Assembly (NCBI GenBank): GCA_030016635.1
Contig: JASEJQ010000013.1
Coordinates: forward strand, 1 to 48,036
Direction: 5' to 3'
DNA: 48,036 nucleotides
Origin: Thermoanaerobacteraceae bacterium
GTDB taxonomy: Bacteria > Bacillota > Thermoanaerobacteria > Thermoanaerobacterales > UBA4877
Within the stretch, counting starts at the first letter, position 1; each line of letters begins with the position of its first letter. Position numbers and translations under genes: made by a program. The notes under the pieces were generated by a model. It did no database searches and was not told where the DNA came from. It saw nothing but the letters and a program-made list of their open reading frames with translations. Shown here one piece after another: positions 356-44,799 of this stretch.

Positions 356-3300
356 ATGATAAGACTTAACATAGATGGAAAAGAGGTATCGGGTTATAAA
401 GGGCAGACAATCCTGGAAATTGCAAGGCAGAATGGTATAGATATACCAACCCTCTGCTTTGATGAGAGACTGGAACCATACGGTTCATGCGGAATGTGTG
501 TGGTAGAAGTGGAGGGGAATAAGAAACTCTTAAGGTCATGTGCCACAGAGGCTGCTGATGGCATGATAGTAAGTACTAATAGTCAGAGAGTGGTTGAAGC
601 GAGAAGGTTTACTCTTGAGCTTTTGCTGTCTGAGCACAGGGGCGATTGCAGGCCGCCATGCGTCATGGCATGCCCTACACACTGCGATGCCCAGGGTTAT
701 GCCGCACTTATAAATAACGGCCAGTATGAAGAGGCATTAAAGCTCATCAAAGAGACTGTGCCGCTGCCGGCCAGTGTTGGCAGGATATGTCCTCATCCGT
801 GTGAGGAGGCTTGCAGACGCGGGCTGGTGGATGAACCGGTCTCCATATGCAACCTTAAGAGGTTTGTAGGGGACTATGACCTGGCCTCAGGTAGTCCATA
901 TATGCCGGAGATAAAGCCGTCCAACGGCATGAAGGCGGCTGTTATAGGTGCAGGCCCGGCTGGCCTTTCTGCTGCATATTTCCTGAAAAAGGATGGCTAT
1001 GATGTCACCATATTTGAAAAGATGCCTGAGGCTGGCGGCATGCTCAGGTACGGCATACCTGAATACAGGCTGCCGAAGTCTGTACTTGAAAGGGAAATTT
1101 CCCTCATTGAGGGAATGGGTGTTGATATAAAGACAAATACTGCCCTTGGTAAAGATTTTAATATTGACTCCTTAAGGAATCAGGGCTTTGATGCTATGCT
1201 CCTGGCTGTAGGTGCCCAGAACAGCTCTGCCCTTAAAATACCCGGCGAGGATGCAGAAGGAGTAATCGGTGGGGTTGAATTTCTGCGAAATGTAGCCTTA
1301 AATCAGCCTGTAACCCTTGGACACAGGGTTATAGTAGTCGGTGGTGGTAATACAGCCATGGACGCTGCCAGGACAGCAATCAGACTGGGGGCTGATGAGG
1401 TTACTGTGGTCTACAGGAGAACTAAAAATGAGATGCCTGCCAGAAGAGAGGAGATAGAAGAAGCCGAGGAAGAGGGCATAAGGTTTGTATACCTTGCCGG
1501 GCCAAAGGAAGTGGTTGTAGAGAACGGGAAAATGGCAGGTGTGAGATTCCAGAAGATGCAGCTTGGAGAGCCTGACGCCTCAGGCAGGAGGTCACCTGTA
1601 CCTATACCAGGTGAAGAACTATATATAGAGGCCGATTCATGCATAGCTGCTATAGGACAGCAGATTGATTTAACAGGTCTGGATGGTATTGCAGTAAATA
1701 GAAACAGGATTGTTATTGAGGAAGGCACATACAGGACCAATATACCTTATGTCTTTGCAGCAGGGGATGCCGTCACCGGACCGGATATAGCCGTAAGGGC
1801 CATAGCCACCGGAAAGGAAGCAGCCTTTGCTATAGAAACTTACCTTAATGGAGAGCTAAAACCAGTAAAACTGCCATATCTTGTTAAGCAGGAGGATATC
1901 ACTCCTGAGGACCTTGCCGGCAGAGAAAAGATAAGCAGGAATCAACCTAAATTATTGAGTGCCGAAGTAAGGAGAGATAACTTCAAGGAATATCTATACA
2001 CATTCGATGAGGAATCAGCCAGAGCAGAAGGAGCCAGGTGCTTGGAGTGCGGCTGCCTGGATTATTTTGACTGTAAGCTGTACCAGTATTCCAATATGTA
2101 TGATGTAAAGCCGGAGAGGCTTCCCGGTGTAATGGCAAAGAGGGACAAGGATTATTCCAGTGATAATATATTGAGAGACCCAAATAAGTGCATACTTTGC
2201 GGTCTCTGTGTGAGGGCCTGTGATGAGATAGCGGGTCCTGCTACACTGGGATATGTGAGAAGAGGATTTGAGGCTGTTACCAAGCCTGAATTTGAAAATC
2301 TGCTTATTAATTCCAGCTGCATATTCTGCGGCGAGTGTGCCTATGTATGCCCGACCGGTGCTATAATGACCGTAAATGACACTTTAAAGCCATTGCCTGT
2401 CAGGGCAGAGGAGAAGGTTACAACATGTACGGGGTGCAGCCTCACATGCCAGGTAATAGTTGAATCCCGGGGAGAAATGATGCTCAGGATTAAGCCCTAC
2501 ATGGAAAATGGGTTTGATGATGGCCTTCTATGCAGTAAGGGCAGCTTTGGATTCGATTGGGTGAATGGGAAATACAGAATAACAGAACCTTTAATTAGAG
2601 ATGGCGAAAAACTCAGTCTTACTACTATGGAAAATGCCCTAAAAACAATGGCAAAAGAGGTAATGAGGTTTGTTTCTACAGACAGCGGCAAACTGGCGGT
2701 GCTTGTATCTTCATCCCTTACCAGTGAAGAGGGTAGAGCAGTTAAAGAAATATTTAAGGATTTTGTATCCGACGAGATGTTCTACACCATAGGAAGCGGC
2801 ATGGAATATGATGTACTACCATTAAAAAGTATAGAGATGGCAGATGCTATAATTACTAAGGGAATAGAGATGGAAGAATATCCGCAGGTGTTCTACTGGA
2901 TAAGAAAAGCACTAAAAAGAGGGGCAAAACACCTTGCCGGTGATGTTGATATAGATGCCATCAAAGAGGCAAAAAAGCCTTATCTTGTATATCGTGAAGG
3001 TGAAGATGTAGAAAAAATACTGTCTATATTACCATCGATAAAGAAGATACCATTGAGACAGGCTGTAAATACAAATGGTTTGAAAAAGACAGGTTATAAT
3101 ATGTCCACAATGGAGTCTCTCAATAAGAAAATATCCAATAGAGAGATACTTGGACTAATCATCGTAGGCAACGTGGATGGACTGAACCCTCTGGTTTTAA
3201 GTGGATTGAAGCTTCTAGTTGACATAACGCCTGTAGAAAAGGACTTAAGGCCGATAGCGGATATAGTGATACCCTATCCATCACCATTAGAAAAAGAGGG

Positions 3301-3451
3301 CACTATTGCAGGTGACTTTGGCGAAAGAAGGCTTAATAAGGCTTTAGATGGTATGGATGCCATGGAGGTATTAAGGGAAATAGCTCAGGCCTTAAATAGA
3401 AGCATTAAGCCTGAGAGGTCTATTAATAAGGAGACCATATATTTAAGATAA
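356..3451 (+). CDS. [2Fe-2S]/GltD-like FAD/ferredoxin/NuoG-like fusion oxidoreductase subunit
   Basis: This is a 1031-residue electron-transfer protein. Visible in order: plant-type [2Fe-2S] domain (Cys34, 45, 48, 62); a GltD/NfnB-type N-terminal Fe-S domain (Cys98, 102, 106, 110 and Cys145, 149, 153, 165); a FAD/NAD(P)H two-dinucleotide fold (GAGPAG near 198, GGGNTAMD near 330); a short Cys-rich linker (CLECGC); two ferredoxin clusters (CILCGLCVRAC near 612, CIFCGECAYVC near 655); the Fe4S4 domain of molybdopterin oxidoreductases (CTGCSLTC near 692); and a shortened, diverged remnant of the molybdopterin domain to the end, ending in a NuoG-like LEKEGTI region. No intact cofactor pocket is apparent, so the last part is probably structural as in NuoG. 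With the upstream HydB/NuoF subunit it probably couples NADH, a second NAD(P)H site and ferredoxin. The ATG has a GGGGG-containing ribosome site at about -14. Confidence 0.88.
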   Translation: MIRLNIDGKEVSGYKGQTILEIARQNGIDIPTLCFDERLEPYGSCGMCVVEVEGNKKLLRSCATEAADGMIVSTNSQRVVEARRFTLELLLSEHRGDCRPPCVMACPTHCDAQGYAALINNGQYEEALKLIKETVPLPASVGRICPHPCEEACRRGLVDEPVSICNLKRFVGDYDLASGSPYMPEIKPSNGMKAAVIGAGPAGLSAAYFLKKDGYDVTIFEKMPEAGGMLRYGIPEYRLPKSVLEREISLIEGMGVDIKTNTALGKDFNIDSLRNQGFDAMLLAVGAQNSSALKIPGEDAEGVIGGVEFLRNVALNQPVTLGHRVIVVGGGNTAMDAARTAIRLGADEVTVVYRRTKNEMPARREEIEEAEEEGIRFVYLAGPKEVVVENGKMAGVRFQKMQLGEPDASGRRSPVPIPGEELYIEADSCIAAIGQQIDLTGLDGIAVNRNRIVIEEGTYRTNIPYVFAAGDAVTGPDIAVRAIATGKEAAFAIETYLNGELKPVKLPYLVKQEDITPEDLAGREKISRNQPKLLSAEVRRDNFKEYLYTFDEESARAEGARCLECGCLDYFDCKLYQYSNMYDVKPERLPGVMAKRDKDYSSDNILRDPNKCILCGLCVRACDEIAGPATLGYVRRGFEAVTKPEFENLLINSSCIFCGECAYVCPTGAIMTVNDTLKPLPVRAEEKVTTCTGCSLTCQVIVESRGEMMLRIKPYMENGFDDGLLCSKGSFGFDWVNGKYRITEPLIRDGEKLSLTTMENALKTMAKEVMRFVSTDSGKLAVLVSSSLTSEEGRAVKEIFKDFVSDEMFYTIGSGMEYDVLPLKSIEMADAIITKGIEMEEYPQVFYWIRKALKRGAKHLAGDVDIDAIKEAKKPYLVYREGEDVEKILSILPSIKKIPLRQAVNTNGLKKTGYNMSTMESLNKKISNREILGLIIVGNVDGLNPLVLSGLKLLVDITPVEKDLRPIADIVIPYPSPLEKEGTIAGDFGERRLNKALDGMDAMEVLREIAQALNRSIKPERSINKETIYLR

Positions 3452-3488
3452 GTTAAATAGATTTATTCTGGTGTAAGAACCATGTTGA

Positions 3489-3693
3489 GAATGATATGCA
3501 ACATTAAATGCAACCTTAAAGCGAGTCTATGATACTCTTGATAAGTGGCAAGTGCAGCTGGGGCATCTGGCATGGACTTAAGATGCCGACTTTGAGGCAT
3601 GGACGCCGAATGGAGGCGTACCCGGCGGAACGCAGCCACGAATTATTAGAGTATCAAGACGAGCGATCAGGTGCATGAATGTTGCTATCATTC
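3489..3693 (+). repeat. Dispersed palindromic repeat, copy A (about 205 nt)
   Basis: This element is shared with 44543-44749 (reverse strand, roughly 80% identical by eye) and in decayed form with 40388-40553. Its two ends pair with each other (GAATGAT...GCAACATT...ATGCA at the left, TGCAT...AATGTTGC...ATCATTC at the right). Further in, TGATACTCT pairs with AGAGTATCA, GTGGC with GCCAC, GGCATCT with AGATGCC, and ACGCC with GGCGT around a GAATGGA loop. It could be a MITE-like element or a structured RNA. No ORF of its own and no obvious target-site duplication is visible. It lies just before the foreign hsd operon. Confidence 0.8.
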
Positions 3694-3880
3694 GTAGAAT
3701 ACTACTTTGTACACTAAAATCAAAATTCTGTATTATAGAATTGGAAAAACAAACTATAACACAGTAGGGTGAAACTTGCTGACCTTGCGAGAAAATTGGA
3801 CCAAAACGCACAACATGATAAAATAACTCTTAAGAGGAGTTTTCTATAGCAGCAAAATATCCCACAGTCTATAAAACCTT

Positions 3881-3939: not shown

Positions 3940-5964
3940 TTGAACAACTTTCAGGATAAAGTAAATTTTATATGGACAATTGCGGAACTATTGAGAGGGC
4001 CATATAAAAAGGAACAATACGGAGATGTAATACTTCCAATGGCTGTATTGCGCCGTTTTGACTGCGTACTTGCACCGACCAAAGAAGAGGTCCTTAAAAA
4101 ACACGAAGAGCTCAAAAAAATGGGGCTTCACAACATGGATCCCATCCTAAACAAAATATCGGGACAAAACTTTCACAATATCAGCAAATTTGATTTTGAA
4201 AAGCTCCTGGCCGATCCTGACAATATAGCTTCTAACCTTCGCAACTACATAAACGGATTTTCTAAAGGAGCCAGAGAAATCATCGAATACTTCGACTTTG
4301 ACAAGCAGATTACCAAACTCAATGACAACAACCTCCTTTACCTTGTGCTTTCAGAATTTGCTAAAATAGACTTTCATCCTGAGACCGTCAGTAATACCGA
4401 AATGGGCTATATTTTCGAAGAACTCATACGCCGTTTCTCGGAACATGCTGAAGCAGGCGACCACTATACCCCAAGAGAAGTAATAAAGTTGATGGTTAAT
4501 ATTCTCCTTAACGAAGAAAGCGAAGAACTCACTCAAAAAGGGCTTATTGTAACTGTCTATGATTGCTGTGCAGGTACAGGCGGGATGCTCTCGGTTGCCG
4601 AAAACTATATGAAGGAACTAAACCCAGACATACAGGTAGAACTTTTCGGTCAGGAAATCAATCCCCAGTCCTACGCCATCTGCAAGGCGGACATGCTCAT
4701 CAAAGGACAGAACGCCGGCAACATTATTTTGGGTGACAGTTTTACTCAAGATGGACATAAGGACAAAAAATTCCGCTATATGCTCACCAATCCCCCCTTT
4801 GGGGTAGACTGGAAAAAGCAGGAGAAGTTTATCAAAGAGGAAGCGGAAACTTTAGGGTATAATGGCAGGTTTGGGGCAGGAACTCCAAGGGTATCCGATG
4901 GCTCTCTTTTATTCCTACAACACCTTATCTCTAAAATGCGTGATGACCAAAAAGGCAGCCGTATCGCCATCATTTTTAACGGCTCCCCCCTCTTTACAGG
5001 AGATGCAGGCTCAGGAGAATCGGAAATCAGACGCTGGATTATTGAAAATGACATGCTGGAAGGAATTGTTGCCCTTCCCGACCAGCTTTTCTATAACACA
5101 GGTATATCAACCTATATCTGGATTGTAACAAACCGTAAAAATACCGATCCGAAAAAAGGGCCCGTAAGAAAAGGCAAAATCCAGCTTATTGATGCCACAA
5201 GTTTTTATCAGAAAATGCGTAAGAGCCTCGGCAACAAACGCAACGAAATAACCGAGGACCAGATTAAAGAGATCACCCGCATTTACGGGGAATTCAAAGA
5301 GAATGAATACTGTAAGATATTTGATAATGAAGATTTCGGTTACCGAAAAATTACTGTAGAACGACCGCTGCGCTTAAACATTATGGTAAGCGATGAGCGG
5401 ATAGAAAACCTGAAAAACGAGATAGGATTTATTAAACTTGCGGAATCAAGAAAGAAAGGTGGTGCCGCCCTGCAGGAAATAGAGGCGGGCAAAGCACTTC
5501 AAAAAAGGATAATTGAAATACTTAATTCGATGGATAAAACAAAACTATACAAGAACAGGGACGAGTTTATCAAAGCATTAAGGAAAGCATTTAAAGAAGG
5601 GGGGTTTTCCCTTGACAACAATCTCTTGAAAGTCCTGCTTTCAGGACTTTCTGAAAGGGATGGAACTGCCGATATTTGCAGAGACAGCAAAGGCAATCCT
5701 GAACCAGACCCTGAGCTGAGGGATACAGAAAATGTGCCTTTAAAAGAAGATATTTATGCGTATTTTGATCATGAAGTCAAACCCCATGTCCCCGATGCCT
5801 GGATTGATGAAAGCAAAACCAAGATCGGCTATGAAATACCTTTTACAAGGCATTTTTACAAATATCAGCCTTTGCGTTCGTCAGAAGAAATACTGAAGGA
5901 AATTATTGAGCTGGAAGGGCAGATTCAGGAGAAGCTGGAGAAGGTGATAGGCAATGGGTTATAA
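3940..5964 (+). CDS. hsdM: Type I restriction-modification system methyltransferase subunit HsdM
   Basis: This 674-residue N6-adenine methyltransferase provides the methylation activity of the HsdM2S and HsdR2M2S complexes. An N-terminal HsdM helical domain (about residues 8-140) is followed by the methyltransferase fold: SAM-binding motif CCAGTGGM near residue 209 and catalytic NPPF near residue 285. The start is TTG, supported by AGAGGTG upstream and the family-typical start NNFQDKVNFIW. The stop overlaps the hsdS start by 11 nt, indicating translational coupling. Arginine is often coded by CGC/CGT and isoleucine by ATC/ATT here, whereas neighbouring core genes use AGG and ATA, which suggests horizontal acquisition of the three-gene unit. 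Confidence 0.96.
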   Translation: MNNFQDKVNFIWTIAELLRGPYKKEQYGDVILPMAVLRRFDCVLAPTKEEVLKKHEELKKMGLHNMDPILNKISGQNFHNISKFDFEKLLADPDNIASNLRNYINGFSKGAREIIEYFDFDKQITKLNDNNLLYLVLSEFAKIDFHPETVSNTEMGYIFEELIRRFSEHAEAGDHYTPREVIKLMVNILLNEESEELTQKGLIVTVYDCCAGTGGMLSVAENYMKELNPDIQVELFGQEINPQSYAICKADMLIKGQNAGNIILGDSFTQDGHKDKKFRYMLTNPPFGVDWKKQEKFIKEEAETLGYNGRFGAGTPRVSDGSLLFLQHLISKMRDDQKGSRIAIIFNGSPLFTGDAGSGESEIRRWIIENDMLEGIVALPDQLFYNTGISTYIWIVTNRKNTDPKKGPVRKGKIQLIDATSFYQKMRKSLGNKRNEITEDQIKEITRIYGEFKENEYCKIFDNEDFGYRKITVERPLRLNIMVSDERIENLKNEIGFIKLAESRKKGGAALQEIEAGKALQKRIIEILNSMDKTKLYKNRDEFIKALRKAFKEGGFSLDNNLLKVLLSGLSERDGTADICRDSKGNPEPDPELRDTENVPLKEDIYAYFDHEVKPHVPDAWIDESKTKIGYEIPFTRHFYKYQPLRSSEEILKEIIELEGQIQEKLEKVIGNGL

Positions 5965-7330
5965 GAGGTATGAGAAATACAAGGATTCAGGTGTGGAGTG
6001 GATTGGGGAGATACCAACGGGGTGGGAAATATTGAGATTAAAGAATTTTATTAAATCTTGTAAGAATGGAATTTGGGGTGAGGAGTCGCAAGTAGATATA
6101 AATGATATTGCCTGCGTAAGAGTAACTGATTTTAACAGGACTAATATGGAGGTTTCAATAGATAATCTTACTATTAGAAATTTGCCGAAAAACAAACAGA
6201 AAGATTATCTTTTGAGAAAGGGAGATTTACTTATTGAAAAATCTGGCGGAGGCGAAAAGCAAGCAGTTGGGTTTGTTGTTGCATATAACCATGATTTACC
6301 CGCAATATATACGAATTTTATTGCAAAAATAGAATTGAAAAGTGATTTTGTTTATCAAGGTTTTTTGAAGTATGTCTTTGCTGCTATGTATTCAATGAAG
6401 ATTAATGTACGATCAATAAAACAAACGACAGGCATCCAAAATCTTGATACTGGTTATTATTTTAATGAGATGGTTCCTATTCCATCTTTAGATATACAAA
6501 AACAAATTGCCAACTTCCTCGACCAAAAAACTGCCGAAATTGACAGTCTTATTGCCGATAAGGAAAAACTAATACAGCTTCTGCAGGAAAAGCGGCAGGC
6601 TATTATCAGCGAAGCTGTTACCAAAGGGCTTGACAGGAATGTACCCATGAAGAATTCGGGTGTTGAGTGGATTGGGGAAATACCAGAACATTGGGAATTA
6701 TCAAAGGTTAAATATTTTTATGATATTTGCTTGGGAAAAATGATCCAGCCAAAACTCACTTCAAGTGAAGATACACTTGAATACTATTTGTGTTCAGTAA
6801 ATGTTACTTGGGATGGGATAGATACAAATAACCTGAAAGAAATGTGGTTTTCTCCTATTGATAAGAAAAGATATGAGATAAAGGCTGGAGATTTAATTGT
6901 ATGTGAAGGCGGAGATGCTGGTCGAGCTGGAATTTGGGATGGTTGTATTGATAGATGTTATATTCAAAATGCTGTGCATAGAGTAAGAGGGAAAAACAGT
7001 AATAATATAAAGTACCTTTATTATTGGCTTTATTTTCTTAAACATGAAGGTTACATAGACTTAATTTGTAATAAGGCTACTATTACGCATTACACTTACG
7101 AAAAGTTTGCTAACACCTTGTTAATTATGCCTGTTATTTCCGAACAAAACCAAATCGTTGAATATCTTGACAAGAAAATCGCTGAAATTAAGATGCTCGA
7201 AAGTAACATCCAAACCCAAATCGCCAAACTCAAAGAATATCGCCAGTCCCTCATATACGAAGCGGTGACGGGCAAAATCGATGTGCGGGACTTTACTCCA
7301 AATACGGAAGGAGTGGTTGCTAATGCCTAA
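5954..7330 (+). CDS. hsdS: Type I restriction-modification system specificity subunit HsdS
   Basis: This 458-residue protein sets the bipartite recognition sequence of the Hsd complex. It has the usual two-fold internal repeat. Each half starts with GVEWIGEIP (near residues 13 and 232), continues with a variable target-recognition domain, and ends with a conserved coiled-coil spacer (QKQIANFLDQKTAEI near residue 178; QNQIVEYLDKKIAEI near residue 396), each finishing in an EAVTKG/EAVTGK motif. Both recognition domains are intact, so specificity is probably functional; the target site cannot be read from sequence alone. The recognition domains are AT-richer than the rest, as is usual for swapped domains. 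It overlaps hsdM by 11 nt and hsdR by 8 nt. Confidence 0.95.
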   Translation: MGYKRYEKYKDSGVEWIGEIPTGWEILRLKNFIKSCKNGIWGEESQVDINDIACVRVTDFNRTNMEVSIDNLTIRNLPKNKQKDYLLRKGDLLIEKSGGGEKQAVGFVVAYNHDLPAIYTNFIAKIELKSDFVYQGFLKYVFAAMYSMKINVRSIKQTTGIQNLDTGYYFNEMVPIPSLDIQKQIANFLDQKTAEIDSLIADKEKLIQLLQEKRQAIISEAVTKGLDRNVPMKNSGVEWIGEIPEHWELSKVKYFYDICLGKMIQPKLTSSEDTLEYYLCSVNVTWDGIDTNNLKEMWFSPIDKKRYEIKAGDLIVCEGGDAGRAGIWDGCIDRCYIQNAVHRVRGKNSNNIKYLYYWLYFLKHEGYIDLICNKATITHYTYEKFANTLLIMPVISEQNQIVEYLDKKIAEIKMLESNIQTQIAKLKEYRQSLIYEAVTGKIDVRDFTPNTEGVVANA

Positions 7331-10313
7331 AACACCCGTAGAGCTTTCCGAAAAAGGCTTTGAAGGATATGCAGAAGAATGCCTTATAAAAGGCGGGTAT
7401 ATCAAAGGCAATCCTGCCGATTACAACAAGGAATACGCCATTGACACCAAAATACTGTTCGATTTTTTGGAAGATACCCAGCCCAAGAAGATACAAAAGT
7501 TTAAGGAAGCATATAAAGACAAATACAAGGCCAAAATCCTCTACCGCTTAAACCAGGAACTTGCCCAGCGAGGTATGGTGGATGTCATGCGGCACGGGAT
7601 GAGGGATTACACCGCCAACCTCGATCTGGCTTACTTTAAGCCTGCCAGCGGACTCAACGCTGAAATGGTAGAGCTGTATAGCAAAAACAGGATTTCTGTG
7701 ACAAGGCAGGTACACTACAGCACCAAAAACGAAAACAGTGTGGATATGGTCATCTTTATCAACGGCCTGCCCGTTATAGTTATAGAACTGAAAAACGCTT
7801 TTACGGGGCAGTCTTATGAGGACGCCATCCTCCAGTATAAAAAAGACAGAAGCCCCAATGAGCTTCTCTTTCAATTCAAAAAACGGGCTGTAGTCTACTT
7901 TGCGGTAGATACCGATGAAGCATATATGACTACCAGAATTGCAGGCGAAAAGACCGAATTCCTGCCTTTCAACAAAGGCTGTGACGGTGGCAAGGGCAAT
8001 CCCGAAAACCCCGACGGTCTTAAAACTGATTATTTCTGGAACGAAGTGCTGCAGAAGGACAGTTTATTAGACATTGTCCAGAAATTTATTTTCATCAAAA
8101 AAGAAGAACTCAAAGACGATAAAGGCAAAAAACATATCAAGGAAACATTGATTTTTCCCCGCTACCACCAGTTGGACGCCGTAAGGAAGCTGGAGCAGGA
8201 CGCAAAAGAAAAAGGGGCGGGGCAGAGTTACCTCATCCAGCACAGTGCAGGGTCAGGTAAGACCAATACTATTTCATGGCTCGCCCACCGCCTGGCAAAC
8301 CTGCACGATAGTAAGGACAATTCCGTATTTGATACCGTTGTGGTCATTACTGATAGAAGAGTATTGGACAGGCAGCTTCAAGACAGCATTTATCAGTTAG
8401 AACACAAATACGGGGTTGTTAAAAAAATCGATAAGAATTCCAGTCAGCTTGCCGAAGCGCTAAAAGGCGGTGCAAGGATTATTATTTCTACCCTGCAGAA
8501 ATTTCCTTTTATTCTCGATAAAGTAGCGGAGCTTGAAAAAAAGAGATATGCCGTTATAATTGACGAAGCCCACTCCAGCTCTGCTGGGGAGAACATGGGT
8601 GCCCTGAAGGAAGTTCTGTCGGCAAACTCTTTAGAAGAGGCACAACGTTTGGACGAAGAAGCAGAAAACAAATACGAAGATGCTGATGAAAAAATCTTAA
8701 ATACATTGAAGAAACGGGGTCCTCAAAGCAATATCAGTTTCTTTGCCTTTACTGCTACTCCCAAGGCAAAAACACTGGAATTGTTCGGTACCAAAGGCCC
8801 TGACGGTTTGCCTCGTCCATTCCACCTTTATTCCATGCGTCAGGCCATTGAAGAAGGTTTTATCCTCGATGTCCTGCAAAACTATGTAACCTATGAAACC
8901 TACTATAAGATTGCTAAAAAAATTGAGGACGATCCTGCCTTTGATAAAGCGAAAGCCACCAAAGCCCTGACCCGTTTTGTCAGTCTTCATCCTCATAACA
9001 TTGCCCAGAAAACGGAAATCATTGTGGAGCATTTCCGTAATGTGACAATGCATAAAATCGGCGGCAGGGCTAAAGCTATGGTAGTAACCAGTTCAAGGCT
9101 GCATGCTGTAAGGTATAAGTTGGCTTTTGACGAGTATATCAAGAAAAAAGGTTATAAAGATTTAAAGACGTTGGTGGCTTTTTCGGGGACAGTAAAGGAC
9201 GGAGGAATTGATTATACCGAATCTGTAATGAACGGTATCATGGAAACCGAGCTTCCTGCCAAATTTGAAACAGACGAATATCAGGTGCTTTTAGTGGCGG
9301 AGAAATACCAGACAGGCTTTGACCAGCCGCTCTTGCATACCATGTATGTAGACAAGAAGCTTTCGGGAGTGAAGGCAGTACAGACCCTTTCCAGGCTAAA
9401 CCGTAAATACCCTGGAAAGAATGATACATTTATCCTGGATTTTGCCAATAAAGCAACGGATATTCAGGAGGCCTTTATGCCTTACTATGAAAAAACAATT
9501 GTGGAAGAGACCACCGACCCCAACCTGGTCTATGACCTGCAGACGAAACTGGACTCATACGGTGTGTATCTGAAAGAAGAAGTAACGGAATTTGCAAAGC
9601 TGTACTATAAACCTGACGGGGAGAAAGCTTCCCGCGACAGGGCAAAGATGAATTCCATCATTGATGCTGGCGTGAAACGTTTTAAAGAGCTTCCTGAAGA
9701 GACAAAAGAAGATTTTAACAGTCAGGCTGTGAAATTTACGAGGTTGTATTCTTTCCTGCTCCAGATTACGCCTTTTGAAGATGTGGAGCTTTTTAAGCTG
9801 TACCTGTACCTGACTTATCTTTTAAAGAAGCTTCCCAAAGGGAAAGCTTCCCGTATAGATTTAACGGATAAAGTGGCCTTAGAATACTATACGAACAAAA
9901 AAACCTTTGAAGGTAGCTTTTCACTCTCGCCCAAGGGCGATACCAAGCCTTTAACGCCAGCCAAATTTGCTGGCACTGGGGTAAAAGAGGGACAAGCAGA
10001 ATACCTTTCTACCATTATTGAACAGCTTAATAAACGTTTTGGCACTGATTTTACTCCAGCAGATCAGTTGTCAGTGGAACAGATTAAAGAAGATTTTGTC
10101 CGCGATGTTGAAATGGTTACTAAAGCAAAAAACAATTCTATGGAGGACTTCCGCTATGCTTTCCAAAAGGCATTTATGGGCAAGGTGGTAGATAGGATGA
10201 GCCAGAATGAAAAATTCTTTATGAAAATACTCGATGATGAACAATTTGCAAATGCACTGATGGAACTTATGCTCCCTAAAGTTTATGAGAAGTTGCAAAA
10301 TATCGCAATATAA
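7323..10313 (+). CDS. hsdR: Type I restriction enzyme endonuclease/translocase subunit HsdR
   Basis: This 996-residue motor and nuclease subunit cuts unmethylated DNA after ATP-driven translocation. The N-terminal PD-(D/E)xK nuclease motif is visible (SVDMVIF with its Asp near residue 139, and VIELKNA near 151). The helicase core follows: Walker A AGSGKT near 308, DEAH box near 415, FTATP near 477 and the QTGFDQP region near 663. The C-terminal helical domain binds HsdM. An in-frame ATG at 7281 exists, but the ATG at 7323 is preferred because AAGGAG lies directly upstream and the overlap with hsdS is then only 8 nt. No frameshift or missing motif was seen, so the whole system appears intact. 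Confidence 0.95.
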   Translation: MPKTPVELSEKGFEGYAEECLIKGGYIKGNPADYNKEYAIDTKILFDFLEDTQPKKIQKFKEAYKDKYKAKILYRLNQELAQRGMVDVMRHGMRDYTANLDLAYFKPASGLNAEMVELYSKNRISVTRQVHYSTKNENSVDMVIFINGLPVIVIELKNAFTGQSYEDAILQYKKDRSPNELLFQFKKRAVVYFAVDTDEAYMTTRIAGEKTEFLPFNKGCDGGKGNPENPDGLKTDYFWNEVLQKDSLLDIVQKFIFIKKEELKDDKGKKHIKETLIFPRYHQLDAVRKLEQDAKEKGAGQSYLIQHSAGSGKTNTISWLAHRLANLHDSKDNSVFDTVVVITDRRVLDRQLQDSIYQLEHKYGVVKKIDKNSSQLAEALKGGARIIISTLQKFPFILDKVAELEKKRYAVIIDEAHSSSAGENMGALKEVLSANSLEEAQRLDEEAENKYEDADEKILNTLKKRGPQSNISFFAFTATPKAKTLELFGTKGPDGLPRPFHLYSMRQAIEEGFILDVLQNYVTYETYYKIAKKIEDDPAFDKAKATKALTRFVSLHPHNIAQKTEIIVEHFRNVTMHKIGGRAKAMVVTSSRLHAVRYKLAFDEYIKKKGYKDLKTLVAFSGTVKDGGIDYTESVMNGIMETELPAKFETDEYQVLLVAEKYQTGFDQPLLHTMYVDKKLSGVKAVQTLSRLNRKYPGKNDTFILDFANKATDIQEAFMPYYEKTIVEETTDPNLVYDLQTKLDSYGVYLKEEVTEFAKLYYKPDGEKASRDRAKMNSIIDAGVKRFKELPEETKEDFNSQAVKFTRLYSFLLQITPFEDVELFKLYLYLTYLLKKLPKGKASRIDLTDKVALEYYTNKKTFEGSFSLSPKGDTKPLTPAKFAGTGVKEGQAEYLSTIIEQLNKRFGTDFTPADQLSVEQIKEDFVRDVEMVTKAKNNSMEDFRYAFQKAFMGKVVDRMSQNEKFFMKILDDEQFANALMELMLPKVYEKLQNIAI

Positions 10314-10434: not shown

Positions 10435-10454
10435 ATAAATATCTCAATTCAATG

Positions 10455-10526
10455 CACTCATATAACCCTGATAATATGGTTTGGGGGTCTCTACCGGGAA
10501 GCCGTAAACTTTCCTGGCTATGGGTG
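10455..10526 (+). ncRNA. Guanine (purine) riboswitch aptamer
   Basis: The purine-riboswitch core is recognisable: P1 strands CACTCAT (10455-10461) and ATGGGTG (10520-10526), the ATATAA junction, AATATGG, the TCTCTACC loop-2 region, CCGTAAA, and GGCTATG at the P3/P1 junction. The discriminating pyrimidine in that last junction is C (GGCTATG), which by family knowledge pairs with guanine; adenine sensors have U. It precedes purE and the rest of the purine operon, the expected regulon. Guanine or hypoxanthine binding should stabilise P1 and switch the operon off. Confidence 0.95.
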
Positions 10527-10556
10527 TAACACTTTAAAGAGCCTGTGAAAATATAG

Positions 10557-31990: not shown

Positions 31991-32118
31991 ATTTGTCGAT
32001 TAAATTAATTTTTAGACAAAGCAGGAAAATGATCTTTTTCGTAGAATACTTTACAATAATATCAGAATAAACTAAAGTTTTCTGATGTGTCCGGTGAATA
32101 TTTATAGTTACAAAATAG

Positions 32119-32213
32119 CAAGCTCCGATCTTTAAAGACTGTCTCTCCTGCCTTTAAAGACGATAGGGTATGAAAAAACAATTTTCATGCCTGCCTTATT
32201 GCAAAGGGGCTTG
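32119..32213 (+). ncRNA. Structured leader RNA upstream of the AOR operon (candidate riboswitch)
   Basis: A three-stem architecture can be read directly. A closing stem CAAGCTCC (32119-32126) / GGGGCTTG (32206-32213) encloses two hairpins: TCTTTAAAG (32129-32137) / CTTTAAAGA (32152-32160), and GGTATGAAAA (32167-32176) / TTTTCATGCC (32182-32191). Conserved-looking single-stranded pieces are TGTCTCTCCTGC in the first loop and TGCCTTATTGCAAA before the closing strand. The place, 145 nt before a tungsten/molybdenum enzyme operon, is where Moco/Tuco RNAs are known in Clostridia, but I could not match the family consensus with certainty. The rest of 31991-32357 shows no gene. Confidence 0.5.
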
Positions 32214-32357
32214 ACCGTTTTGGATGGGGTTCATTAGTGGTTCGTCTTATCATGTTTGTATAAGAGGGGGTGTGAAAAGAGGAGTTTTGGGTTGTATAGG
32301 ACTTCAAGGTTTTCAAAATTAAAATAAAGGAGGTGTACTGGCATCGGATATCTCCTG

Positions 32358-39146: not shown

Positions 39147-40352
39147 ATGCTGGAGGTTTTGAGAACATCTGAGGTTATTGATATTATAAACAATGAGTTC
39201 AGGTACGATGAGGCTGAAGAGGTGGGCCTTTTGGAGTCACTGGAGAGGATACTTTCCCGGGAAATAATTTCTCCGGAAGACCTGCCTCCTTTCAGCCGGA
39301 GTACGGTGGACGGGTATGCGGTCTTTGCAGCAGATACATTTGGAGCCAGTGAGGCCTTGCCGGCATACCTTACCATACAGGGTGAGGTAAGGATGGGAGA
39401 GGCAGCCGATATTAAACTGGAAAGATACCACACCATATATGTGCCTACAGGTGGGATGCTGCCAGATGGTGCTGATGCGGTGGTTATGATAGAGTACACG
39501 GAGAGGCTGGGCGAAGAGGTCACAGTGGCCAGGCCGGTAGCGCCGGGAGAGAATGTCATTTCAAGAGGAGATGATGTGAAAAGAGGTGACCTGCTTTTTA
39601 CAAAAGGCCACAGGATAAGGCCGCAGGACGTGGGAGTGTTAGCTGCTCTTGGGATAATAAAGGTGCCTGTATTTAAAAAATTGAGGGTAGGTATATTATC
39701 CACAGGGGACGAATTAGTAAGCCCAGGAGAGAATCCAGGTCCGGGGGAAGTGAGAGATATAAACTCGTATTCTCTGGCAGCATCTGTAGTGAAGGATGGA
39801 GGTACACCAGAGGTGTATGGTATAGTGAAGGACGACTTCGAATCATTGAGGGAAGTTCTTTCAGACATGCTGCTGGATAATGACATAGTCCTGATATCTG
39901 GCGGAAGCTCTGTAGGGGTGAGGGACATGACAGAAAAGGTGATGGGGTCATTTGATGGGTCCCGTATGTTGGTACACGGTGTCTCCGTTAAGCCTGGTAA
40001 ACCTACTCTGCTGGCCTCCATAGACGGCAAAGCTGTGTTTGGCCTCCCTGGCCATCCTGTGTCTGCTTTGACTATATACGGGCTTTTTGTAAGGCCGATT
40101 ATATCCCATAGTGAACTGGATTCCATAGTATATGTAACAGCGCACATGGCAGAGAATTACTCATCCAACCATGGGAGAGAGGAATATCTTCCGGTCAGGC
40201 TTGAAGAGAATGGAAATGAGTACCTTGCCTATCCAGTCTATGGAGAATCTGGTCTCATCACATCGCTTACCAGAGCCCACGGGGTTGTACGGATAGAAGC
40301 TGGCAGAGAGGGTTTAAACAGGGGGCAGGTGGTTAAGGTTAGGCTATATTAA
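39147..40352 (+). CDS. moeA: Molybdopterin molybdenumtransferase MoeA (first copy)
   Basis: MoeA inserts molybdate or tungstate into adenylated molybdopterin. The 401-residue protein has the MoeA patterns: PFSRSTVDGYAV near residue 49, VPTGGMLPDGADAVVM near residue 97, GILSTGDELV near residue 186, ISGGSSVG near 250 and FGLPGHPVSAL near 296. The ATG follows GGAGGAATAAT. A second MoeA is encoded 350 bp downstream; in organisms with both metals one copy is thought to serve tungsten and the other molybdenum, but which is which cannot be told here. Confidence 0.93.
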   Translation: MLEVLRTSEVIDIINNEFRYDEAEEVGLLESLERILSREIISPEDLPPFSRSTVDGYAVFAADTFGASEALPAYLTIQGEVRMGEAADIKLERYHTIYVPTGGMLPDGADAVVMIEYTERLGEEVTVARPVAPGENVISRGDDVKRGDLLFTKGHRIRPQDVGVLAALGIIKVPVFKKLRVGILSTGDELVSPGENPGPGEVRDINSYSLAASVVKDGGTPEVYGIVKDDFESLREVLSDMLLDNDIVLISGGSSVGVRDMTEKVMGSFDGSRMLVHGVSVKPGKPTLLASIDGKAVFGLPGHPVSALTIYGLFVRPIISHSELDSIVYVTAHMAENYSSNHGREEYLPVRLEENGNEYLAYPVYGESGLITSLTRAHGVVRIEAGREGLNRGQVVKVRLY

Positions 40353-40387
40353 ATTATTGGGATGACGTTGCAGTCGCTTGTTATAGG

Positions 40388-40553
40388 TGGCATAATAACG
40401 TTCAAAGGCATCCTTGAAGCGGGTACGTGATACTCTTAATGAGTGACAAATGTAGCAGGGGCATCAGGTATGGACGCCGAATGGAGGTGTGCCATGCGAA
40501 ATGCAGGTATTAATAGAATTATGGATATTTCTCAGTTGTATTGCCTATCATCG
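40388..40553 (+). repeat. Dispersed palindromic repeat, copy B (decayed, limits approximate)
   Basis: This shorter, eroded relative of the elements at 3489-3693 and 44543-44749 has the same orientation as copy A. Recognisable blocks are GCATCCTTGAAGCG, GTGATACTCTTAATGAGTG, GCAGGGGCATC, TATGGACGCCGAATGGAGG and GCCTATCATCG. The internal GGCAT hairpin has been deleted, and the inner AGAGTATCA strand has been mutated so that the stem no longer pairs well. After it, 40554-40656 has a GGTAGGGG/CCCC hairpin and a GCGCT/AGCGC stem plus ATTTTT that may end the moeA transcript. Confidence 0.7.
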
Positions 40554-40656
40554 AGGTAGGGGAGCACCCCTTGACCTTGTTGTACCAGGATGAGCGCTGA
40601 GATGCTGGGATGGTAGCGCCATTTTTGCGATAGAATCATTATGCCATATCGTTATG

Positions 40657-40665
40657 TGCTATAAT
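40657..40665 (+). promoter_or_regulatory. Extended -10 promoter of the second moeA
   Basis: TGCTATAAT is an extended -10 element (TGn plus perfect TATAAT at 40660-40665) 33 nt before the ATG at 40699. No good -35 is visible, which is acceptable with an extended -10. The moeA2-moaA-moaC-MOSC genes may therefore be a separate transcript. Confidence 0.5.
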
Positions 40666-40698
40666 ATATATCGGGAGATTAACTTGGGAGGACTTTTA

Positions 40699-42603
40699 AT
40701 GAATGAGGTTTACCTTCAAAATATGGACATGGAAGAGGCAGTGGAAATTTTCCTTGGTAGCTGCAATGTAGAGATGGAGGTTGAAAGGATAAAGACAGAG
40801 GAGGCACAGGGCAGGATTACGGCCAGGCCGGTTTACTCCATAAACTCCTCACCCCATTTCAATGCAGCGGCCATGGATGGTATAGCTGTAAGGTCCTATG
40901 AGACATTTGGAGCTACACGCCTCAACCACAAAAGGTTAGAGAAGGGTATCAACTATATGGTTGTGGATACGGGTGATCCTCTACCCGAAGGTTTTGACGC
41001 AGTTATCATGGTGGAAAACCTTATTAGAATTAGTGAAGATGAGGTGGAGATAACAGAGCCGGTAACCCCATGGCAGCACATAAGGCCCATAGGAGAGGAC
41101 ATGGCGGCCAATGAGCTCATCATCCCCACCAACCACAAGATTACACCGGTGGATATAGGGGCTATGCTGGCAGGCGGTGTACTGGAGGTGGAGGTATACA
41201 GGGTACCAAGGGTAGGCATCATACCCACAGGCACAGAGATAGTAAAACCTGGCTCTGAACTAAAACCTGGAGACATTGTGGAGTTTAATTCCAGCATAAT
41301 TTCCGGATATGTGAAAGAATGGGGTGGAGAGCCTGCAGTGTATGAGATTGTACCCGATGACAGGGAACTTCTTAAAAGAGCACTGGAGAGGGCATGTGAT
41401 GAATGTGATATTATTATGACCATAGCCGGTTCCTCTGCAGGGAGAGAGGACTACACCTCATCCATCATTGAGGAAATGGGAAGGGTGCTTGTCCATGGCG
41501 TGGCCACAAAGCCGGCCAAGCCTGTTATTCTTGGTCTTATTCAGGATAAACCATTTATAGGTGTACCCGGTTATCCGGTGTCATGTTATTTCACTCTGGA
41601 TAACTATTTAAAGCCCTTGCTTTACAAGGTGAACAGGCAGATTTTACCGGCCAGGCCGCAGATAGATGCCATAGTCTCCCACAAGCTTGTATCATCGTTA
41701 AAAGAAAAGGAGTTTGTAAGGATAAAGCTTGGCAAGGTAGGGGATAAGCTCATTGCCACATCCTTAAACAGGGGCGCTGGGGTCATAATGTCGCTGGTCA
41801 GAGCAGATGGCATACTGATAATACCCAGGGAAAGCGAAGGATATGAGGCAGGAGAGCAGGTGAGGGTGGAGCTGCTAAAAGACATAAGAGAGATAGAGGG
41901 GACATTAGTGGTAATCGGAAGTCATGACCTGCTCATAGATGTCCTGTCTGATTTTCTCCATGCCAGGTTTCCGCTCTACAGCTTATCATCAGCCAATGTG
42001 GGGAGCATGGGTGGTATAATGGCCCTGACAAGAGGTGAATGCCATTTGGCACCGATGCATCTTTTAGATTTTGATACAGGGGAGTATAATGTATCATATA
42101 TAAAGAAATACCTCAAGGACAAAAGGATTTCACTCATAAAGTTTGTTAAAAGAGTACAGGGGTTTATTGTACCAAAGGGTAATCCCAAGGATATTAGGAA
42201 TTTTACAGACCTGGTAAGAGACGATGTCACCTTTGTAAACAGGCAGAGGGGAGCTGGTACAAGGCTTCTTCTTGACTATAACCTTCAGAAATTGGGAATA
42301 AACCCTGCAAGTATAAAGGGATACGAGCACGAGGAATATACACATCTGCAGGTAGCAGCACAGGTGGCAAGCGGCGCTGTGGATACGGGGCTGGGTGTGA
42401 AGTCTGCGGCTCAGGCCTTTAATCTGGATTTTATCCCTGTAGGTGAGGAGGAATATGATTTAGCCATACCAACAGAGTTTCTTGAAATGGATAATGTAGA
42501 AAAACTCCTGGGTATAATGAGGTCGGATGAGTTTAAGAGAGAAGTCGATAAACTGGGCGGATATGATACAACCAATACAGGAAATATACTCCACATAACA
42601 TAG
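40699..42603 (+). CDS. moeA: MoeA fused to a C-terminal periplasmic-binding-protein-like domain
   Basis: The 634-residue protein has a MoeA part (about residues 1-400: AMDGIAVRS near 57, DTGDPLPEGFDAVIMVEN near 93, GIIPTGTEIV near 174, GVPGYPVSCYF near 292) followed by a PBP-like domain (about residues 410-634: VVIGSHDLLIDVLSDFL, NRQRGAGTRLLLDY, SGAVDTGLGVKSAA). That second domain resembles the LysR/ModA-type ligand-binding fold and may bind the oxyanion or a cofactor precursor. Such fusions are known in clostridia and archaea. A longer frame from 40654 exists; the ATG at 40699 follows GGGAGG. It forms the start of the MoaA-MoaC-MOSC group. Confidence 0.9.
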   Translation: MNEVYLQNMDMEEAVEIFLGSCNVEMEVERIKTEEAQGRITARPVYSINSSPHFNAAAMDGIAVRSYETFGATRLNHKRLEKGINYMVVDTGDPLPEGFDAVIMVENLIRISEDEVEITEPVTPWQHIRPIGEDMAANELIIPTNHKITPVDIGAMLAGGVLEVEVYRVPRVGIIPTGTEIVKPGSELKPGDIVEFNSSIISGYVKEWGGEPAVYEIVPDDRELLKRALERACDECDIIMTIAGSSAGREDYTSSIIEEMGRVLVHGVATKPAKPVILGLIQDKPFIGVPGYPVSCYFTLDNYLKPLLYKVNRQILPARPQIDAIVSHKLVSSLKEKEFVRIKLGKVGDKLIATSLNRGAGVIMSLVRADGILIIPRESEGYEAGEQVRVELLKDIREIEGTLVVIGSHDLLIDVLSDFLHARFPLYSLSSANVGSMGGIMALTRGECHLAPMHLLDFDTGEYNVSYIKKYLKDKRISLIKFVKRVQGFIVPKGNPKDIRNFTDLVRDDVTFVNRQRGAGTRLLLDYNLQKLGINPASIKGYEHEEYTHLQVAAQVASGAVDTGLGVKSAAQAFNLDFIPVGEEEYDLAIPTEFLEMDNVEKLLGIMRSDEFKREVDKLGGYDTTNTGNILHIT

Positions 42604-44482: not shown

Positions 44483-44542
44483 ATTGGAGTTTATCTGATA
44501 AAATAAATATAATTAAGACTCTGGGATAGAAAGACCACTTTC

Positions 44543-44749
44543 GGATGATAGTGGCATCCATGCACCTGGTCGTTCGTCTTGATACTCTATAAATTCGTGG
44601 CTTGCATTTCGCCGGGTACGCCTCCATTCGGCGTCCTTGCCTCAGGTCGGCTCATTTGACGTCCATGCCAAATGCCCCGGCTGCACTTGCCGCTCATTTA
44701 GAGTATCATAGACTCATTTTAAGGATGCATTTGATGCTCACCATCATCC
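44543..44749 (-). repeat. Dispersed palindromic repeat, copy C (207 nt)
   Basis: This is the reverse-strand copy of the element at 3489-3693, nearly the same length and alignable end to end. Its ends pair (GGATGAT...GCATC...ATGCA with TGCAT...GATGC...ATCATCC), as do TGATACTCT/AGAGTATCA and the GGCATTTG/CAAAT..GCC hairpin. Several stem positions differ from copy A on both sides, so pairing is kept. It fills most of the gap between the MOSC gene and the P-loop gene; what remains, 44750-44799, has a TATAAT (44772-44777) and the ribosome site of the next gene. Confidence 0.82.
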
Positions 44750-44799
44750 TTCATAAAAGTTCTCACACAAATATAATTGCGATTCTGGAGGAGAATATA

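Follow-up and report, generated by a model that had tools for sequence, protein, structure and literature searches.

Three related repeats in the window

The window, that is the whole 48,036-nucleotide stretch of DNA analysed here, contains three mutually related repeats, which we call copies A, B and C. Copy A starts about 20 nt past the stop codon of an open reading frame (ORF) at 356–3451 and is directly followed, at 3940–10313, by a set of genes resembling a type I restriction-modification system (hsdM, specificity subunit and hsdR), for which all NCBIfam calls lie under the curated cut-offs. Copy B is flanked by two MoeA-like ORFs (39147–40352 and 40654–42603), and a molybdenum/tungsten cofactor riboswitch (RF01055, 44.3 bits) lies before it at 32111–32225. 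The window further harbors a purine riboswitch at 10438–10540 (RF00167, 78.3 bits). The features of the repeats are listed below, where R1 denotes a covariance model built from 30 copies of the window's own genome.

3470..3721 (about), + strand: copy A, entire element, with left end GGTGTAAGAACC and right end TTTGTACACTAAAATC
3516..3671, + strand: copy A, RNA core (model R1, 162 bits)
3571..3578, + strand: copy A, apical loop 1, CAUGGACU (sequence)
3598..3605, + strand: copy A, apical loop 2, CAUGGACG, with the CANGGANG motif (sequence and motif counts)
40367..40637 (about), + strand: copy B, variant element with deleted junction and alternative 3′ arm
40414..40536, + strand: copy B, R1 match (44.6 bits)
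40469..40476, + strand: copy B, sole GGA loop, UAUGGACG (sequence)
44517..44768 (about), − strand: copy C, entire element, with an orthologous insertion in the sister genome (L142)
44566..44723, − strand: copy C, match to RF01731 (TwoAYGGAY)
44660..44667, − strand: copy C, apical loop 1, CAUGGACG (sequence)
44632..44639, − strand: copy C, apical loop 2, CAAGGACG (sequence)
44505..44516, − strand: copy C, target duplication, 3′ copy, TTAATTATATTT on the minus strand, matching the 5′ AATTATATTT
44769..44778, − strand: copy C, target duplication, 5′ copy, AATTATATTT

Sequence comparison confirmed that A and C can be aligned from end to end, as the preliminary description had it, while the length of ~206 nt given there has to be extended to units of ~250 bp. 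Both copies are also predicted, again in line with that description, to fold into one long closed structure, with −103.7 kcal/mol (z −8.0) for copy A and −107.1 kcal/mol (z −7.0) for copy C, and no shuffled sequence was equally stable in either case. The resulting shape is a long single stem with a branched head. Copy A displays two AUGGAC loops and copy B retains one; the apical loops of copy C are CAUGGACG and CAAGGACG, the second being AAGGAC. Copy B has a junction deletion of ~31 nt and an alternative 3′ arm, CCCATCATCGAAGTAGAGGAGTG...CCTTG, which is also present in several other copies.

The repeats belong to the TwoAYGGAY RNA family

Although no named family had been recognized for these repeats, copy C exceeds the cut-off of the Rfam covariance model RF01731 (TwoAYGGAY) with 50.7 bits against 43. 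Taken singly, copies A and B stay below every Rfam cut-off, and both match a model built from the family's copies. The repeats share with TwoAYGGAY the two apical GGA loops and the tandem G-A positions in the second hairpin, and judged from these matches the membership of all three copies appears practically certain. A search of the genome with RF01731 matched 29 copies, 20 of them above the gathering cut-off (copy C and 19 others). The covariance-model search of the genome that had been proposed raised the count from three to 78 copies in 2.35 Mb, about one per 30 kb (R1), and extended to relatives of the same order: the sister genome (G001) carries 18 copies and most genomes of the g5 group, from the same order, carry 5–44. 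In a 299-genome sample of the phylum, the RNA is present in 22 families. When the genome's contigs were scanned with an 18-base core, just four matches turned up, apparently by chance. While the literature that we found treats TwoAYGGAY as an orphan without known function, here it is found at the core of a transposable element that has defined ends and many copies.

The RNA core lies within a mobile element

Alignment of the copies revealed conserved ends, GATTNNACTGTAAGAAC and CTTCTTACANTNNAATC, well beyond the boundaries of the Rfam model. The pattern formed by both ends has 28 matches in the genome compared to 3 for a reversed control pattern, and it delimits an element of ~250 bp that contains no ORF and has terminal inverted repeats. 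The copies are flanked by direct repeats (for example ATTTCATGATT, AAGTAATGATT and AAAGATGGTTAAA) with a mean length of 6.7 nt, compared to 3.3 nt when left and right flanks were exchanged between copies (n = 31); none of 500 such permutations exceeded 4.07. The length of the target duplication varies from about 6 to 13 nt; a fixed 13-bp duplication was considered and rejected, as register 13 is the best overall, yet single copies vary.

One insertion splits a hemerythrin-like ORF (name read from sequence) with an exact 13-bp duplication, and the reading frame becomes continuous once the element and one repeat are omitted. The insertion at C70:44552 has a clean empty site in the sister genome, which shows that the left GATTNNA is part of the element at this locus. 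This empty site is the only clean one, since the other joined flanks examined either need gaps to be aligned once the element is left out or carry remnants, and are thus weaker. Several copies in the sister genome are orthologous to insertions in the window's own genome, copy C included. The preliminary description had posed a structured RNA family and a miniature inverted-repeat transposable element (MITE) as alternatives and had suggested looking for common inverted-repeat ends and empty sites in relatives, both of which were found. Together with the RNA features described below, they indicate that the two proposals hold jointly and that the unit is almost certainly a TwoAYGGAY-bearing MITE. 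Stray terminal repeats were also considered as ends of a hidden transposon; this idea was dropped, as no transposase ORF is adjacent and several of them are further copies or remnants. Like the Coxiella QMITE and the pneumococcal BOX, RUP and SPRITE repeats (PMC10969869), the element is short, gene-less, intergenic, palindromic and multicopy; it differs from them in its covarying RNA core, found in 22 families, and in a loop motif resembling a protein-binding site.

Covariation and strand-specific loops point to conservation as RNA

Since RNAalifold retrieved too few pairs from the full gappy alignment, the analysis relied on alignment A1 and on the model alignment A2. Standard pairs make up 96% of the pair cells in the plain alignment of 30 copies. 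The paired differences between A and C seen before are real, and they belong to a wider pattern: 14 pairs are altered on both sides in these copies, compared to 6.3 after shuffling and 2–7 when the partners were slid, and double-changed cells number 60 compared to 14 in shuffled alignments and at most 12 in slid structures. For 69 model-aligned copies the corresponding numbers are 124 and 32, in an alignment which itself leans to the structure.

Such covariation might also be produced by a plain MITE, in which the hairpin is kept as DNA (as a cruciform or as ends) for the transposase, the RNA is functionless, and the compensatory changes result from recombination among the copies or from correction of the palindrome. 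This reading would accommodate the occurrence of copies in both orientations and the existence of recombinant copies, namely L024 (C26:61987) and L028 (C41:12903). These two combine a pair of outer-stem subtypes in reciprocal fashion and have lost the pairing, as recombination between copies lying far apart, or misassembly, would produce. A DNA hairpin is, however, strand-symmetric and an RNA is not, so that an excess of G-U pairs over A-C mismatches on one strand speaks for RNA. On the modelled strand, 126 G-U cells face 58 A-C mismatches (pairs 20 to 8, P = 0.036), and in the unfitted alignment the ratio is 40 to 20; with a bootstrap range of 0.56–0.78 for the G-U share and mutually dependent copies, this is support rather than proof.

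The loops argue in the same direction. They are the constant part of the RNA, and GGA hexaloops recur across lineages with differing stems. CANGGANG is found on the RNA strand in 57 of 62 copies of the window's own genome and on the opposite strand in none of the 62; it occurs twice per copy in 16 of 16 g5 copies and is also found in copies of g3, G275, G064 and G322. The elements of G153 have CAGGAU loops instead of CANGGANG. Five g3 species each have just one ~200-nt copy, which lacks the CAGACTG ends, lies between the same two genes and is nearly identical amid unalignable flanks. This suggests a kept function, the alternative being a recent independent insertion at one site. Taken together, these observations support, without proving, that the core is conserved as RNA, and they make the plain MITE an unlikely explanation. 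The neighbours at the g3 locus (L074, L078, L079, L083 and L085) are S41-peptidase-like and glycerate-kinase-like ORFs (names read from sequence), and the orientation of the RNA relative to them is opposite between species, which would fit either inversion of the block or repeated insertion at a single position.

IS1182-family transposases as probable mobilizers

In the g5 genomes, the RNA is enclosed by the ends CAGACTGTAGACAAA...TTTGTCAACAAACTG. Two g5 genomes were searched for this pattern, with 60 and 25 matches, and the distant G153 has 41, compared to 0 for the control, and 26 of 30 loci bearing these ends contain the RNA core at E ≤ 1. Most elements of the g5 and G153 type reside within a terminator-like hairpin, a complete copy of which is present on either side. 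The palindromic repeats abutting the ends are perfect and up to 26 bp long (mean 15.2 compared to 5.0 in the control). They provide natural cases of whole-terminator duplication, which earlier authors drew merely as a possibility.

One relative, G012, harbors a 1560-bp insertion sequence with the ends CAGACTGTTGACAAA...TTTGTCAACAAACTG and 20-bp palindromic duplications, whose transposase belongs to the IS1182 family (NF033551, 492 bits, cut-off 270). We looked for the RNA core in this IS and found it absent, the ends being those of the RNA elements. Transposition as such hence needs no RNA core, which further argues against the plain MITE and leaves the earlier proposal that the hairpin is read by a transposase unsupported for the core. 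From the common ends and the palindromic targets, we consider it very probable that IS1182 moves the RNA elements in the relatives, which would link a stem-loop-targeting IS family to a structured RNA. The RNA elements differ from IS1182 in that they carry RNA and no transposase gene. IS1272, which is grouped with IS1182, targets stem-loops and removes the target without duplication, whereas the g5 IS duplicates its target.

In the window's own genome, neither PF13751 (IS1182) nor PF00872 (IS256) has a match; IS256, our first guess from the ends, was discarded on this ground. Since no such transposase is left there, we infer the mobilizer from the relatives. The sister genome contains pieces of PF13751 only, two of three interrupted by stop codons, and the ends in the window's own genome are merely similar to those of the relatives (ACTGTAAGAAC compared to ACTGTAGACAAAC). 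In the window's own genome, the target sites are AT-rich, have no more than a weak dyad and, with one clear exception (C17:22364), are not terminator hairpins, so that strong palindromic targets were rejected for this genome. IS1182 is nevertheless likely to have moved the elements here as well.

The RNA might serve the element rather than a host protein, by binding the transposase or its mRNA or by making insertion into transcription units tolerable. In that case any copy mobilized in trans would need the RNA, and its presence in the great majority of the loci with ends would fit. In the elements of G153, the same ends and the same kind of terminator target accompany an RNA that is quite dissimilar in sequence, from which we conclude that core and ends have travelled together; their joint occurrence in distant families (g5, G153) is thus also consistent with such a role. 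The IS itself dispenses with the RNA, however, the single-copy RNAs of g3 lack the ends, and neither the GGA loops nor the co-occurrence with CsrA described below would be explained. We regard this explanation as improbable, still more so than the plain MITE.

Genomic placement and a proposed link to CsrA

Between tandem genes lie 57 of 77 copies, 36 in sense and 21 in antisense, a mild orientation bias only, and copies are often located within 50 nt of a stop codon. This placement would suit a cis-regulatory element, the type assigned by Rfam, with each copy governing the adjacent gene. Both orientations occur, however, copies in relatives lie in and near terminators, and an informal look noticed no common class of neighbouring gene; moreover, cis-regulation of TwoAYGGAY was scored 'n' by Weinberg 2010 (PMC2864571). 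Cis-regulation thus appears very improbable. Since 21 copies are antisense between tandem genes, many copies would be transcribed antisense, and an obligate sense 3′-UTR placement was rejected because the orientations are mixed.

CANGGANG hexaloops have been described as the high-affinity CsrA/RsmE site (PMC4894983), and CsrA binding has been hypothesized for TwoAYGGAY from motif matching (PMC4333381). The window's own genome encodes CsrA (G000:C74:3629–3775, 74 bits). Within the 299-genome sample, CsrA is encoded in 42 of 44 RNA-bearing genomes and in 171 of 255 others (P = 4.2e-5, kinship ignored), so that many CsrA-encoding genomes do without the RNA; within the order, both CsrA-less genomes have zero RNA copies. 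CsrA binding is hence the best-supported candidate function, for which we judge the chances to be about even. CsrB/RsmZ-type sRNAs, known from Gammaproteobacteria (PMC4333381), likewise display several CANGGANG-type GGA hexaloops on stems; the TwoAYGGAY unit differs in offering two or three candidate sites, in tens of dispersed mobile units.

Our preferred reading, to which we give moderate confidence, is that the repeats are mobile CsrA-binding RNAs, i.e. MITEs with a TwoAYGGAY core moved by IS1182. Being gene-less, the element would depend, now or formerly, on a DDE transposase of the IS1182 family that acts in trans, recognizes the terminal inverted repeats and brings about a duplication of the target site, which in relatives is the complete hairpin of an intrinsic terminator. 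Transcription from neighbouring genes would yield copies folded into the long stem and the branched head showing two CANGGANG hexaloops, the head most likely being conserved because the loop pair binds a CsrA dimer. Each copy may then act as a dispersed CsrA-binding (titrating) element. For the orphan family, this would supply an anatomy, a way of spreading and a candidate partner protein, and it would indicate candidate CsrA-titrating RNAs in bacteria without a known CsrB/RsmZ-type RNA. More tentatively, the CsrA titre of the host might be set by tens of transposon-borne decoy hairpins at gene ends, with the element being widespread in Firmicutes-type lineages. Such decoys, if real, would be comparable to Alu elements, which carry part of a cellular RNA.

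Further variants of the element

A ~92-nt insert common to several copies (L002, L024, L026, C59:29255 and C60:11140) is located at one and the same TTAA of the left arm, across stem subtypes. A second end type, GTGTCAAG...GTAGGTAAA / TTTACCTACTGAAATTTTACAC, surrounds the same core in the same genus (L089, L081 and L075; g5). In G275, a longer inverted repeat, GAGTCACGGGGACGGTTCT...AGAACCGTCCCCGTGACTC, apparently a further family of palindromic repeats, encloses two TwoAYGGAY copies (L228 and L229).
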